This document shows positions 1,006-56,227 of a stretch of DNA of 64,000 nt, one piece after another (within the stretch, counting starts at the first letter, position 1; every line of letters begins with the position of its first letter). This DNA is from a bacterium (GTDB lineage: Bacteria; Vulcanimicrobiota; Vulcanimicrobiia; Vulcanimicrobiales; Vulcanimicrobiaceae). The notes under the pieces are model-generated. The model made no database searches and was not told where the DNA came from. It saw nothing but the letters and a program-made list of their open reading frames with translations. A program made the position numbers and the translations under genes. The stretch is taken from NCBI GenBank assembly GCA_021805775.1, contig JAJZED010000012.1:1-64000 (forward strand), in the 5' to 3' direction.

Positions 1006-1659
1006 TTATCTAAACAGAATTTTCGGAAAGGCGTTTCGGCTAACGATTAGCGGCTTGCCTAAAATACACCCGCGCCGCTTGGGCTCGTTCACATAAAGCC
1101 GCAGACTTTTCCCTGGCTCGACCGTAACCAAGAGCGTGTACTGCGACTCGCTCGACCCTTTTGCTTCGCGACGGCGGGCTATCAGGTCAAGAAGTCTGCT
1201 ATAAGGAATTCCGCAAATTTCACGTTCTTCAACGCAAACAAGTGCTAGAAACAAGTTTTCGTTGACTTTCGCAATTCCTTTGAGTTCCCGAATTTGTTGA
1301 GTCGTAAATGAAAACGGATACTCGTTGGTGTTTTTTAGGGGCCTCGATGCGTATTTAAGGTAGACGGCGATCTTATCGTTAATTTTATAGGCAACCTTGC
1401 ACGAAGTTCCTTTAAAATGCAACGTGTTAATTGCGGTGAAGTGCGTATCTTCAGCAATCTGGATAAGCGCGGCTCCGTGGTACATATGGTCATCATCAAT
1501 TCGCAAGTCAAGTTCTCCCAACGCCAAGTGACGGGCGCCTGTCTCTCGTTTATTTTTTAAATAGTGCACGAGAAGCCCAACCTGCATATTTCGAGGGCTG
1601 TGCTGAGCCGCATTCCCGATTTTGCAGCGATCGCTTCCGGCGAAACCTTTTTCCCGCAC
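1006..1659 (-). CDS. Hypothetical protein, AT-richer than its surroundings
   Basis: The 217-residue product starts at a GTG with AAAGGA about 9 bases upstream; an internal ATG at 1587 is an alternative. I see no signal peptide or membrane segment. A central stretch (TSCKVAYKINDKIAVYLKYA, then EYPFSF and LFLALVCVEEREICGI) resembles an uncharacterised family I recall near restriction or defence genes, but I cannot assign a function. Base composition is clearly lower in GC than neighbours and codon use differs, suggesting transfer together with the adjacent drmC/IS patch. It is convergent with drmC, 41 bases away. Confidence 0.7.
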   Translation of the reverse strand: MREKGFAGSDRCKIGNAAQHSPRNMQVGLLVHYLKNKRETGARHLALGELDLRIDDDHMYHGAALIQIAEDTHFTAINTLHFKGTSCKVAYKINDKIAVYLKYASRPLKNTNEYPFSFTTQQIRELKGIAKVNENLFLALVCVEEREICGIPYSRLLDLIARRREAKGSSESQYTLLVTVEPGKSLRLYVNEPKRRGCILGKPLIVSRNAFPKILFR

Positions 1660-1704
1660 AACAGAGGTCCTTTATTCCGGAATTACCTTAATGAATGAAC
1701 CTGA

Positions 1705-1851
1705 ACGCTAAACAGGCGCTGCATCGTCTGCCCGCGCCACGGCGCGACGTATGACGTCACCACCGGCGAGGCGCTCACGCTCCCGGCGGTGATGCCGGTG
1801 CCGAGTATCCCGGTCTGCCGCGATGGCGACGAACTCATCGTCGAGGTATAG
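1705..1851 (+). pseudogene. Remnant of a Rieske [2Fe-2S] ferredoxin
   Basis: This frame has no usable start: the in-frame triplet at 1702-1704 is a stop. It encodes the last 48 residues of a Rieske-type ferredoxin. The second cluster-binding box, CPRHGATYDVTTGEA, is intact (Cys codon 1729-1731, His codon 1738-1740), followed by LPAVMPVPSIPVCRDGDELIVEV and TAG. The first Cys-x-His box is absent, so no cluster could form. It is best read as a gene truncated when the accessory DNA to its left was inserted. Confidence 0.75.
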
Positions 1852-38126: not shown

Positions 38127-40427
38127 ATGTCGTCATTCCGACGTTTTTGCGCGTGCATCGCGCTTGCTTTCACCTGTATTCTTCTTCCGACTATCGCTTC
38201 GGCATCGACCACCGGCGAAGTTCGCGGCACGGTCACCGCGCACGGTAAGACGCTCGCCGGCGCGCATGTCATGCTCGTAGGCGAAGGACGCCACTTTATG
38301 AGCGTTACCGGAAGCAACGGTACGTTCGCAATTTTTCGCGTCCCCTTCGGCCACTATCGCCTGATGACGATGCGCGTCGGGTTGGGCATGCAAATGCGCG
38401 AGATCGATCTCCATAGCGGCGAAGTTCTCCGCCTGCGGATCGCCCTACATAAACTTGCGACGATTATCGTTACGAAGGTCATCGCGAACCAAAGTGCGGC
38501 CGGCACCCCGGTTGCCTCAACGACGATCGACCGCGCCCAGATAAGGACGTTGCCGACGAATAATAGCTTGAATAGTATCGTGCAGACCGTCCCCGGTATC
38601 GTCGCGTTTTCGTATAACGAACCGGTCGCGCACGGATTCCACGGCCTCACCTACGAGATCGACGGCGTTCCGCTCCCGCAGGGTACGTCGTCGAATTTCT
38701 CGGAGCTCATCGACCCCAAGAACGTCTCCTCCGTCGAGGTGCTGACCGGAGCGATGCCGGCCGAATACGGCGGCAGTCGCATCGGCGCGGTCGTCAATAT
38801 CGTTACGAAGCGCCTTCTCGATATCCCGCCCGGCCTGCATACGCGCCTGAGCGGCGGCATCGGTAACCAGGGCATGGACATGGCCTCGCTCGACGAAACC
38901 GCCCGCTTCGGCAAAACCGACGTCTTCTTCAGCACCAACAACCAGCGCACCGATCGCGGCATCGATACGCCGACGTACGTGCCGATTCACGACCAAAGCT
39001 CGCTAGCCGATCAATTTTTTCGTATGGTCGAACACCCCGACGAGCGCACCTCGTTAGCGTTTACCTTCTCGAATCAACTCGCACAGTTTCAGATTCCCAT
39101 CAATACCGACCCCAATAATCCCAACGACCCCATCGTGAGCGTACCGGGGACCGACGACGTGCAGCGCGAGTACGACCGTTTCGTCAATGCTGCGTTCTCG
39201 CGCTATACCAAAAAAGGCAACGGCTATCTCCAAATCGTCCCATGGTTCCGCTCCTCGCGCGTTGTTTATGCGGGCGATCTCGCTAACGACGTGCTCGGAA
39301 CGCAGCCAAATCCTAGCGGCCCCGGCAGCATCAGCAACATCGGGCTCAACCAGGATCGCTTCGTTTCCTACGTGGGGCTCCGGATTGCCAATTTGGTTAC
39401 CTCGCGGCACCACGCGATAAAATACGGCCTCGATATCGAACGCGCGAGTTTTCAAGGAAGCGAGACGTTCGCACAACTCGGCTTGCCGAATACGACCACC
39501 ACGCAAGGGCAAGCGGGCTCGCAGACCGGTCTCTATATCGAGGATTCATGGCAGCCGAGTAAACCGCTCTCGTTCGATTATGGCGTTCGCTGGGACACGT
39601 CGCACGGATACGTTTCCGGCATGCAAATCAGCCCACGGGTCGGCGTCAACTATGCAGTTGATTCCAAGAATATCTTGCACGCCTATTACGGACGCTTTTA
39701 CGCCGCGCCGCAACTGGAAGATACGCGAGCGGCGTGCGTGGTATTACAGGGCTGCACGACGACGCCAACCTATAACCTAAAACCAGAATTCGACAGCTAC
39801 TACGAAGCGGGATTCCGTCATATCTTCAATGCGCGGCTTACCGGTTCGATCGATTTTTGGTTCCGTAACGTCGCCAACGTGCTCGATACGACCCAACTGC
39901 TCAACACACCGCTCTTTGCCGTTTACAACAACACCGTCGGGCAGGCGCACGGTATCGACATTCATCTCGCCGGCCACGACTCGCGTAACGTGAACTCGTG
40001 GTTCCTTTCCAGCACCATCTCGCAATCGCTCGCCGGCGGCATCTCGGGCTCGACCTTTCTCTTTCCGCCGAATCAGCCCACCTATCCATTGCAGCTCGAG
40101 GACCACTCGCAGACCGTATCGGCGAACGGTGCGTTCACGCACCGCTTCGGGCGCAAGTTACAAAACTTTGCGACCCTACAGACGGCCTACGGCACCGGTT
40201 TCCCGGTGCAGTTTCAGAACGGGAACGGCCTTCTGCCAACGCATCTCACCTTCGATTTCGGAATCGGCCAAGAGTTACCGACCGGGAACGGCAAACACCT
40301 TACCGCCACCATCGAGGTCGATAACCTTCTCAATCACCAGTACATCATCAAAATGGCGAACGGCTTCAACACCACGCAGATCGCCAACGGCCGCACGGTG
40401 CTCTTCAAACTCTCGGAGACGCTCTAA
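38127..40427 (+). CDS. TonB-dependent outer-membrane receptor with carboxypeptidase-regulatory domain
   Basis: 766 residues: signal peptide (CIALAFTCILLPTIASA), an N-terminal carboxypeptidase-regulatory-like domain (GEVRGTVTAHGKTLAGAHVM), a plug domain (NSIVQTVPGIVAFS, YEIDGVPLPQGTS, SSVEVLTGAMPAEYGG) and a 22-strand-type barrel. The substrate is unknown; such receptors import metal chelates, vitamins or glycans. GACGGGAG precedes the ATG by six bases. A repeat cluster lies just downstream. Confidence 0.92.
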   Translation: MSSFRRFCACIALAFTCILLPTIASASTTGEVRGTVTAHGKTLAGAHVMLVGEGRHFMSVTGSNGTFAIFRVPFGHYRLMTMRVGLGMQMREIDLHSGEVLRLRIALHKLATIIVTKVIANQSAAGTPVASTTIDRAQIRTLPTNNSLNSIVQTVPGIVAFSYNEPVAHGFHGLTYEIDGVPLPQGTSSNFSELIDPKNVSSVEVLTGAMPAEYGGSRIGAVVNIVTKRLLDIPPGLHTRLSGGIGNQGMDMASLDETARFGKTDVFFSTNNQRTDRGIDTPTYVPIHDQSSLADQFFRMVEHPDERTSLAFTFSNQLAQFQIPINTDPNNPNDPIVSVPGTDDVQREYDRFVNAAFSRYTKKGNGYLQIVPWFRSSRVVYAGDLANDVLGTQPNPSGPGSISNIGLNQDRFVSYVGLRIANLVTSRHHAIKYGLDIERASFQGSETFAQLGLPNTTTTQGQAGSQTGLYIEDSWQPSKPLSFDYGVRWDTSHGYVSGMQISPRVGVNYAVDSKNILHAYYGRFYAAPQLEDTRAACVVLQGCTTTPTYNLKPEFDSYYEAGFRHIFNARLTGSIDFWFRNVANVLDTTQLLNTPLFAVYNNTVGQAHGIDIHLAGHDSRNVNSWFLSSTISQSLAGGISGSTFLFPPNQPTYPLQLEDHSQTVSANGAFTHRFGRKLQNFATLQTAYGTGFPVQFQNGNGLLPTHLTFDFGIGQELPTGNGKHLTATIEVDNLLNHQYIIKMANGFNTTQIANGRTVLFKLSETL

Positions 40428-40451
40428 CGTCGAAGCGCGACTCCACCTCAC

Positions 40452-40671
40452 GTCAGCCCGAGTAGGCTGCGTAGCAGCCGTATCGAGGGCCACGCGCCAA
40501 TCTCGCGCGCCTCGATACGAGCGCTTCGCGCTCTACTCGGCGTGACACCCGAGTAGCCTGCGCAGCAGCAGCGATGTCAGCCCGAGTAGGCTGCGCAGCA
40601 GCCGTACCGAGGGCCACGCGCCAATTTCGCGCGCCTCGATACGAGCGCTTCGCGCTCTACTCGGCGTGACA
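40452..40671. repeat. Tandem pair of 96-base palindromic repeat units
   Basis: Units 40452-40547 and 40576-40671 differ at only three positions. Each contains two hairpins: GGCTGC-(GTA/GCA)-GCAGCC and GAGCGC-TTC-GCGCTC. The hairpins are framed by the same flanks, TCGATAC on one side and TACTCGGCGTGAC on the other (the first hairpin carries the flanks inverted). They are REP-like and non-coding. Confidence 0.85.
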
Positions 40672-40928
40672 GCTGCGATCATGCTGCGGGAGCGAACGGA
40701 GCCTGCGTGCACCCGACGAGCGCTTAAGCGAGCGGCGAGGACCCTGACATTGCTTGTCCGAGCCGCGAGCGTCTAGCGAGGAGCGGTGCAGCGCAGGCGA
40801 ACGTAAGCGCACGCGGCGCCTCGATACGGTTGCTTCGCAACCTACTCGGCGTGACAATTGCGCGGCGCCTCGATACGGTTGCTTCGCAACCTACTCGGCG
40901 TGACAAGTGCTACTCGGCGTGACAAGCG
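40672..40928. repeat. Continuation of repeat cluster: long shared core plus two more hairpin units
   Basis: 40710-40803 is a core of about 95 bases also present, inverted and nearly identical, near 55980-56077. It is followed by two copies of the GGTTGC-TTC-GCAACC hairpin in the same TCGATAC/TACTCGGCGTGAC frame (40816-40856 and 40865-40905), and then by short TACTCGGCGTGACA fragments reaching the hemQ stop codon. No reading frame here is credible. Confidence 0.85.
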
Positions 40929-41771
40929 CTACTCGACGAGTGCCGGAACCGAGTCTCCATCGAGAAAAACCCCGAGCTGCGTCGGCGAAAATTGCACCCC
41001 ACTCCAGAACGACCCGAACTCACCGTACTTTGCGCTCGCTTCATCGAAGCGCATTTCGTAAACGATTTTCTTGAACACCAACGGATCGTCGGCATAGAGA
41101 TCGACCCCCCATTCGAAATCGTCGTAACCGATCGACCCGGAGATGACTTGCGTGAGCTTCCCGGCATAGGTGCGCCCGATGAGCCCATGTTCGTGCATCA
41201 TCTTGCGGCGCTCTTCGAACGGCGTCATATACCAATTGACGCTCTCGCCGCGACGTTTATCCATCGGATAGAAGCACGTGTAGCGGCGGCGAGGGATCTT
41301 TGCCCAAAGGCGCGGCGCGATATACGGGCTGACCGCTTGGCTTGCGAGCGCCTCGTCGAACGCGCGCACCCACTCTTCTCCGCCCTGCTCCAAACCGCGC
41401 GCGGCGAGGTCGGCGTGAATTTTTCCCGTCGCATCGTACATGCCGATCTCGAGAACCGATACGTAAGAATCCATCGGTTCCAAAAAGAAGCGAAGGTCGG
41501 TTTTGTCGACGAGCATTTGCGCGTAGGCAAGGCCGTCGTAACTACGCGCGTAATGCGTGAGCATGAGATCGCCCTTATGCCCGACGAGTTGGGTGAGGCC
41601 GATATCGCCGTCTTCGCCCGCGTGCATATGTTCGAAGAGATCGCACGTGCGGCTCGCGATCTTCGCGCGCCTCTTTTCACCGACGCTCTCCCAAAGCAGC
41701 CGATCGAAGCGGAACATCCGGTGGAGAATCCACCATCCCTCCAACGATTCGGGGACCCGCGGGTCACGCAT
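40929..41771 (-). CDS. hemQ: Coproheme decarboxylase (HemQ/ChdC)
   Basis: 280 residues of the chlorite-dismutase superfamily. RRYTCFYPMDKRR with NWYMTPFEERRKMMHEHG, and IGRTYAGKLTQVISGSIGYD with DFEWGVDLYADDP, match HemQ of Firmicutes and Actinobacteria. HemQ decarboxylates coproheme to heme b; the Tyr of the FYPM motif is the expected catalytic radical. The ATG at 41771 overlaps panE by 8 bases. The stop codon lies within a repeat motif, so the last residues may have been altered by repeat insertion. Confidence 0.93.
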   Translation of the reverse strand: MRDPRVPESLEGWWILHRMFRFDRLLWESVGEKRRAKIASRTCDLFEHMHAGEDGDIGLTQLVGHKGDLMLTHYARSYDGLAYAQMLVDKTDLRFFLEPMDSYVSVLEIGMYDATGKIHADLAARGLEQGGEEWVRAFDEALASQAVSPYIAPRLWAKIPRRRYTCFYPMDKRRGESVNWYMTPFEERRKMMHEHGLIGRTYAGKLTQVISGSIGYDDFEWGVDLYADDPLVFKKIVYEMRFDEASAKYGEFGSFWSGVQFSPTQLGVFLDGDSVPALVE

Positions 41772-42747
41772 GCTTTCCTTTCTCTCGCGCTTTCGCACGT
41801 TTCATCTCGGCATAAACTTCATCGAGCAACGCTTCGGGGCGTTCGCGATACTTCGCCCACAATTGCGGCATCTGTGCGATATCCGCCAATACGCGCGCGT
41901 AGACCGCATTCACCGGAGTTGGGATGCCCGCAGCGCGCCCGGCTACCGCAACGGCGCCGCAGAGCGACTCCACTTCGGTTCGTTCCCGCCCCGAACGCAG
42001 ATCGAGCAGCAGCGATGGCGGTTTCGTGCCGCGTGCCGAGGCGACGCGCCCGGCGAGCACGCGCCGTGCTATCGGGCTCGGCAGCGAAGCGATGGCGAAG
42101 AGCGCGCGCACGGGATAGCGCGGAAGATCGACCGGCGTCAGTCCGAGGGCCTTCATCACGTCGCGCACTTCGCGGATCGCTCGAATTTCGAGCGTGAATA
42201 TTTTCTCGAACTGCACCAAACGATTCGGCAACACGTTGAGAATCGCACACGACGCATTCGCGACGATGTTGAGCGCGAGTTTGCTCCACTTGAGCGCCCG
42301 CCAATCTTCGCACACCTTCACCGAAATGCCGGCGCTCTGAAACGTTGCGCTCAGCCAGTTATAGGCGGCCCCACCGAGCGGGGCGAGCGCGAGGCCGCCG
42401 TCTTTTGCGGCGGCGACGCGTCCGTCGCGGTCGCGGTCGACCGGCACGGTGAGAGCCGCGGCGACGATGTTGCGTTCGCCGAACGCCGCCGCGAGCAGCT
42501 CTTCGTTTCCAACGCCGTTCTGCGGCGAAACGAAGACGCAATTCCCGGGCGCGGCAATCGCGCGTTTGAGGCTCTCAATCGCCGCAGGCGTGTCGTAACT
42601 CTTCACCGCGACGATCGCGACGTCGGCATCGACGCGCGTCACCTCTTCGAGTTCGCGCGGCGCATAGATGACGTTGACGCCGACCGCACTCAGGCGTTCC
42701 CCGAGAAAGGAACCGACCGCACCGCGCCCGACGATGTAGACGTTCAC
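41764..42747 (-). CDS. panE: 2-dehydropantoate 2-reductase (ketopantoate reductase)
   Basis: 327 residues: NADPH-binding start [20 protein letters not shown], then [13 protein letters not shown]-like region, [12 protein letters not shown], and the C-terminal domain with [19 protein letters not shown] (catalytic Lys region) and [21 protein letters not shown]. It makes pantoate for coenzyme A. It is coupled to dut (ATGA overlap) and hemQ, forming a cofactor/nucleotide operon. Confidence 0.9.
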
Positions 42748-55907: not shown

Positions 55908-56149
55908 TTGTCACGCCGAGTAGCGCTTGTCACGCCGAGTAGAGCGCGAAGCGCTCGTATCGAGGCGCCGCGCTCGCTCACGTTCGCCTGCGGTGCACCG
56001 CTCCTCGCTAGACGCTCGCGGCTCGGACAAGCAATGTCAGGGTCCTCGCCGCTCGCTTAAGCGCTCGTCGGGTGCACGCACGCTCCGCTCGCGCATACGG
56101 TTGCGCTTGTCACGCCGAGTAGAGCGCGAAGCGCTCGTATCGAGGCGCG
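55908..56149. repeat. Inverted copy of the 40-kb palindromic repeat cluster
   Basis: Contains a fragmentary GTCACGCCGAGTAG unit, two GAGCGC-TTC-GCGCTC hairpin units (about 55929-55967 and 56109-56147) and, between them, the same core of about 95 bases as at 40710-40803 but on the opposite strand. The remaining spacer (55845-56227) up to fliQ and metF shows no reading frame. It breaks the flagellar operon upstream of fliQ. Confidence 0.85.
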
Positions 56150-56227
56150 TCGGCGCCGATCCCGCGACGAATCTATCGGTTCCCGGTTTCCGCTTGAGGC
56201 GCTCTCCGCCTCAACTCATCGCGTTCG

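Follow-up and report, generated by a model that had tools for sequence, protein, structure and literature searches.

GTAG-class REP-like repeats with a fixed frame and exchangeable palindromes in a genus of Eremiobacterota

The array of repeats described here lies in the window, the whole 64,000-nucleotide stretch of DNA that was analysed. By sequence definition it belongs to a known kind of element, the GTAG-class REP family, and it is organised as BIMEs. REPs are defined by a conserved GT(A/G)G 5' of a palindrome of variable base composition (PMC3686654), and both this definition and the behaviour of TnpAREP have been described (PMC3686654, PMC3733652, PMC8266576). New are a fixed cross-phylum frame enclosing a nearly free stem, a second covarying arm, the turnover of stems at fixed sites, the missing RAYT and a companion element. 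The explanation that we consider probable is a BIME-like cluster of GTAG-class REPs built for the processing of single-stranded DNA hairpins, now without a detectable RAYT. The working form would be a folded single DNA strand carrying GTAG, as in the REPs processed by the HUH enzymes TnpAREP/RAYT, and as with these enzymes GTAG and the hairpin shape would matter more than the letters of the stem. Dispersal would be due to an enzyme of the RAYT type, either since lost from the genus or acting on it from outside, and at present the repeats would turn over as copies recombine and slip against one another, as other copies take their place, and as palindromes are repaired by template switching. With this family one can test directly how REPs diversify and whether they need a RAYT: an identical frame encloses a nearly free stem in different phyla, stems are at chance similarity where the flanks are 77-90% identical, and the expected enzyme is absent.

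The covarying repeat hairpins that the initial annotation had noticed at 40452-40928 are real, and the structure is larger than first described. The gap 40428-40928 between the TonB-dependent receptor gene and the convergent chlorite-dismutase-family gene is filled with REPs: it holds five REP-like hairpins in frame, one with a mutated frame, several truncated copies and a companion element of 71 nt (Table 1). The first two copies form an inverted doublet with the GTAG ends outside, and the third belongs to a second, 96-nt copy of this doublet (97% identity). All three stems had been placed in one frame, TCGATAC-...-TACTCGGCGTGAC. This frame is exact for both GAGCGC/GCGCTC and both GGTTGC/GCAACC copies but not for GGCTGC/GCAGCC; the latter stem does exist in two copies, but on the opposite strand and in a sister frame, TACTCGGGCTGAC, and the second of them has CGGTAC instead of CGATAC. 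At the right end of the array CGAGTAG, on the minus strand of the decayed half copy, contains the TAG with which the chlorite-dismutase-family gene stops.

Table 1. Coordinates of the array, its flanking genes and a second cluster in the window
Feature	Position	Strand	Details
TonB-dependent receptor gene	38127..40427	+	ends 24 bp before the array; PF00593 1.3e-19, PF07715 6.3e-13
REP copy, GGG-type head (GGGC)	40451..40490	-	stem GGCTGC, loop TAC, GTAG tail on left, frame TACTCGGGCTGAC
REP copy, GGC-type head (CGCC/GGCG)	40508..40547	+	stem GAGCGC, loop TTC
Truncated copy CCCGAGTAGCCTGCGCAGCAGC	40548..40569	-	GTAG-side half only (repeat family D4)
REP copy, GGGC head	40575..40614	-	stem GGCTGC, loop TGC, frame mutated to CGGTAC
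REP copy, GGCG head	40632..40671	+	stem GAGCGC
Companion structured element	40701..40798	+	71-nt conserved core (40713-40783), complementary arms GCCTGCGTGCAC / GTGCAGCGCAGGC
REP copy, GGCG head	40817..40856	+	stem GGTTGC
REP copy, GGCG head	40866..40905	+	stem GGTTGC; tandem with the preceding copy, period 49
Truncated 3' (GTAG-side) half copy	40906..40924	+	tandem, period 19 (repeat family D3)
Decayed half copy CTACTCGACG	40925..40943	+	runs into the end of the chlorite-dismutase-family gene
Chlorite-dismutase (HemQ-type) gene	40929..41798	-	convergent neighbour; PF06778 1e-50
Second cluster of the same family	about 55909..56150	-	two full REPs, one half copy, one companion element

On the REP strand the unit reads TGTCA-NSCC-GAGTAG ... 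CGTATCGA-GGSN, where the written parts are constant and the enclosed palindrome of 4-9 bp, usually with a GNA triloop, is variable. GTAG stands directly at the palindrome in every framed copy. REPs are short (20-40 bp), numerous and extragenic. The element described here is about 40 bp long, occurs in 278 framed copies in the 2.59 Mb of the host genome (G000), and is extragenic, 48 of 63 clusters being clear of any long ORF as judged with a rough gene caller. With its GTAG tail beside a variable palindrome, intergenic location, high copy number and inverted doublets the repeat thus fits the sequence definition of the REP element, the label suggested initially.

Among 423 copies collected from the genus the inner palindrome takes 100 distinct forms, of which 82 are perfect; 16 have one mismatch and two have more. 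Few genomic copies and stem variants that break pairing had been named by the initial annotation as the findings that would speak against it; copies are many (278 frames in the host genome), and any mismatch is present in just 18 of the 100 distinct palindromes. Over 82 distinct 40-mers 97.9% of the cells were paired; shuffling the partners brought this down to 68.9 ± 1.2% (0/500) and sliding them to 36-49%. Two-sided changes numbered 228. These values exclude chance palindromes. Covariation extends to the outer arm (CGCC/GGCG 168, GCCC/GGGC 72, CCCC/GGGG 67, TCCC/GGGA 53, TGCC/GGCA 12). The sequences behind these statistics are related to one another; with up to four pair types per position and with flips between G-C and C-G, the covariation is secure despite this relatedness.

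In the drawn structure the GTA of GTAG is unpaired, and the last G is paired in 82 of 82 aligned elements. Of 66 perfect triloop alleles, 55 have a GNA loop on the GTAG strand (p about 3e-55 against a null of 1/16, the alleles not being independent), as do 13 of 14 well-pairing alleles from other phyla (TCC, equal to GGA, in nine; TTC, equal to GAA, in four). GNA loops closed by C-G form very stable DNA mini-hairpins, such as GCGAAGC, and the loops thus point to folded DNA. Single mismatches are free of a wobble bias to one strand (T-G five, C-A four). A different palindromic repeat, CCTGAGCGAGCGAAGCGAGTCGAAGG, was noticed within the hairpin of REP-framed copies at two loci (L155, about 1649-1800, minus strand; L063:10512-10640).

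All ten same-genus Eremiobacterota genomes carry the frame, NSCCTCGATACG-[palindrome]-CTACTCGGSNTGACA, at high density. The host genome has 278 full frames against none of the control, and 187 exact occurrences of TACTCGGCGTGAC against none of the reversed pattern; each of the nine other genomes has between 28 and 202 frames. In 139 other genomes of the phylum the family is nearly absent, one to three frames, some of them not palindromic, being present in eight. In a genome-wide scan the frame, with head and TGACA tail, occurred among the matches listed in Candidatus Eremiobacterota MAGs, two Peribacteria, one Bacteroidetes and one Ignavibacteria MAG; the shorter frame was counted 39 and 18 times in the two Peribacteria, and four and seven times in the Bacteroidetes and Ignavibacteria genomes. 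Among 380 genomes of the Peribacteria phylum two were rich in the shorter frame, and 15 others had one or two matches each. The latter serve as a natural control for chance palindromes: the listed matches to TCGATACGN{6,24}CTACTC in these 15 genomes are not palindromic, and the many copies in the two Peribacteria are. Such a patchy distribution is as expected for a mobile or transferred element. The frame had no match in viral contigs, a search for actinobacterial plasmid relatives gave no match, and a literature search with the frame strings returned no relevant paper.

Sites could be compared between genomes through their flanking genes, the chlorite-dismutase gene serving as the anchor for the site of the window. 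At this site genomes whose neighbour protein is 93-98% identical keep the frame, and their stems differ. Most sites with both flanks mapped are also occupied by REPs in the host genome; about ten are not, and several of the empty sites are clean. Whole clusters vary in presence between species, and their positions are mostly conserved. Exact insertion boundaries were sought from the empty sites and none was derived, the flanks being too diverged. With a flank identity of at least 93% the stem was shared at three of three sites; with 77-90% identity the stem allele was shared at four of 27 sites, where random re-pairing gives 2.2 ± 1.3. Stems are thus effectively randomised at 77-90% flank identity, and covariation by itself is no proof of slow selection. 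Rapid turnover has shaped it along with the maintenance of pairing. The statement that compensatory change implies selection on the folded form was therefore too strong: the stem is replaced as a whole unit at fixed sites, and template switching in palindromes both creates and maintains pairing by mutation (PMC8794818). The family is also a warning that compensatory changes of the textbook kind, when they are met in repeats, are not necessarily a sign of slow selection on structure.

Template switching (PMC8794818), conversion, and replacement by new copies or insertion are possible routes of the turnover. Some stem changes are single compensated pairs, and others replace the stem and its length outright; one array contains the stepwise intermediates GGCCTTGCAGGCC, GGCCCTGCAGGCC (with a C-A mismatch) and GGCCCTGCGGGCC. 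As a tentative alternative, pairing might be kept by mutation alone, template switching copying arm onto arm, conversion or slippage spreading the arms, and the frame appearing constant as copies are homogenised or young. The established mechanism, the intermediates, the near-chance sharing of stems at fixed sites and the mismatches without strand-biased wobble all agree with this. It leaves unexplained the fixed frame and GNA loop across phyla, the doublets with two heads (see below) and the occupation of new sites, and template switching by itself does not easily turn GCTGCC-TTC-GGCAGC (L064) into GGCGCC-CAAA-GGGCGCC (L256).

The architecture of the clusters was determined in 1.62 Mb of the 2.59 Mb host genome. 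This sample contained 247 full copies in 63 clusters, with 1 to 12 copies per site. Of the orphan halves, 164 come from the GTAG side and 29 from the opposite side, a polarity that suggests slippage when copying stops at the hairpin. Close neighbours were in tandem in 94 cases (67 with the same stem), inverted with GTAG outside in 45 and inverted with GTAG inside in 20. Counted by locus, the doublets with GTAG outside combined a GGC with a GGG head in 24 of 27 cases (half expected, p 2.5e-5). Such close inverted doublets with the GTAG ends outside, in mosaics of REP types, are the organisation of BIMEs and REPINs. Arrays hold tandem duplicates of doublets, of single units and of GTAG-side halves. 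The two partners of a GTAG-outside doublet shared the same stem in 0 of 45 cases; by locus this is 0 of 27 with 0.65 expected (probability of zero 0.52), and avoidance of equal stems is not significant. GTAG-side halves of 19-23 bp were also seen stacked in tandem on the GTAG side of REPs, e.g. at L052:8845-9635 and L268:9155-9400.

Multi-copy clusters lay in 23 convergent, 14 tandem and one divergent gaps, compared with 85, 203 and 83 among all gaps longer than 30 bp in the same loci, a comparison that uses gene calls from a rough script and a background including the cluster gaps themselves (Fisher's test, convergent excess p 3e-6, divergent deficit p 0.002). Placed immediately downstream of genes, the clusters are likely to influence the 3' ends of transcripts as a secondary effect. 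That the hairpins are primarily transcribed structures, protecting 3' ends or terminating transcription between convergent genes, appears quite improbable. The location downstream of genes and the avoidance of divergent gaps would suit such a role, and REPs have been proposed to act on mRNA ends (PMC3733652). Against it, the framed copies do not resemble intrinsic terminators, in which a T-run comes after a GC-rich hairpin: here the sequence behind the hairpin is TACTCGG on the CGATAC strand and GTATCGAGG on the GTAG strand, without a T-run. In Rfam 15 the window had no match at gathering score, the best of five weak matches in the array (E 0.14) being far below the family cut-off. GNA triloops of the kind found in stable DNA mini-hairpins, the lack of strand bias in wobble pairs and the number of copies at a site do not favour this role either. 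The suggestion of a regulatory RNA motif has thus gained no positive support. In the host genome TAG stops are commoner in genes ending at REP clusters (35/63 versus 204/635, p 4e-4), and 8 of 63 such genes, versus 9 of 635, end in CGAGTAG; some of these stops come from the repeat itself, so that target preference and read-in are not separated.

The initial annotation had seen no REP-type transposase in the window, and Pfam and NCBIfam profiles detect none in the whole host genome either. PF01797 (Y1 transposase) had no match in any of the ten genus genomes, nor in 19 others from the same family and order; in another order of the class it matched in 9 of 12 genomes. NF047646 (RAYT) had no match in the seven genus genomes tested, with positive controls responding. 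At the completeness of the ten genomes (61-96%) a gene common to the genus should have turned up in at least one of them. The cognate Y1 (RAYT) gene of a RAYT-mobilised REP, or REPtron, was thus not detected in the genus, and movement of the repeats by a transposase stays a proposal. One Peribacteria genome with the same general frame (18 copies) has a curated RAYT (L171:1102-1938, NF047646 85 bits, cut-off 80) with a REP frame copy, TTCGATACG...CTACTCAGG, just upstream. This was the one proximity found when RAYTs flanked by repeats were sought in other phyla; a single case among ten Y1 genes examined is weak and could be chance.

TnpAREP requires both GTAG and a hairpin, works exclusively on the strand that carries GTAG, and in some systems accepts exchanged stems (PMC8266576); a fixed frame with free stems fits these properties. 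Two observations argue against our preferred explanation of REPs built for single-strand processing: with Y1 absent, the genomes richest in the repeats lack the enzyme proposed to spread them, and the last G of GTAG is paired here, whereas the GTAG of known families is described as unpaired (PMC3733652). Since Y1 is absent although the content turns over, a RAYT-independent agent, an unknown nuclease or a frame-targeting RNA-guided recombinase of the IS110 type, might copy and exchange the repeats. An IS110-family element was in fact observed (L130:2754-3717, RNA-guided transposase profile NF033542, 265 bits); right ends of IS110 abut REPs exactly at CTCGATACG in nine distinct junctions with several stems (among them L130, the start of L059, the end of L060, and L210), and several contigs of the host genome break at the element. 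Such an agent is nonetheless very doubtful: IS110 elements are known for inserting into REPs rather than for copying them (PMC1525189, PMC11208160), the IS110 transposase was not found in four other genomes searched (G001, G003, G006, G008), where contig ends may hide copies, and no candidate gene was identified.

Among known systems, the family resembles the GTAG super-family of REPs (Di Nocera et al. 2013, PMC3733652), with which it shares GTAG at one end of the palindrome, stems of 6-9 bp, short loops, complementary stem changes, inverted doublets and the location behind genes. It differs in the longer constant frame on both sides (NSCCTCGATAC / TACTCGGSNTGACA), the covarying outer stem, the paired last G, the GNA loop and about 100 stems in one genus; Eremiobacterota and Peribacteria are not among the phyla listed in that paper. 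The mosaics, in which REPs of two types that differ in their heads alternate in orientation, recall the E. coli BIMEs (y with z1/z2 REPs), but E. coli REPs have conserved stem positions and a required bulge (PMC8266576), whereas the stem is nearly free here. REPINs with their RAYT (PMC3686654, PMC3116915) likewise form close inverted doublets with the GTAG ends outside, but in this genus no RAYT was found, and partners were never seen with the same stem, though not significantly so. As in the REP-targeting IS110/IS1111 elements (PMC1525189, PMC11208160), IS110 inserts at a fixed point of the REP foot; here it is a user of the repeat, not its source.

The 71-nt core of the companion element had 19 copies in the host genome sample, all 19 within 106 bp of a full REP, and the REP lies downstream in one orientation. 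The element has no Rfam match. A natural guess is that it is a non-autonomous element or an RNA gene travelling with the REPs. One could further imagine that REPs are maintained and rewritten without any RAYT, by an agent that reads the frame and swaps palindrome cassettes into conserved sites, the companion being its RNA or cis site; we regard this as unlikely. The arms vary between copies and pair better with their own partner than with permuted ones (0/5000), although the arms are GC-rich and single cases noisy. Each of the ten genus genomes contained the core, and weak relatives occurred in five other genomes (G065, G066, G103, G112, G077); further loci in the host include L047, L049, L055, L056, L062, L291 and L292.
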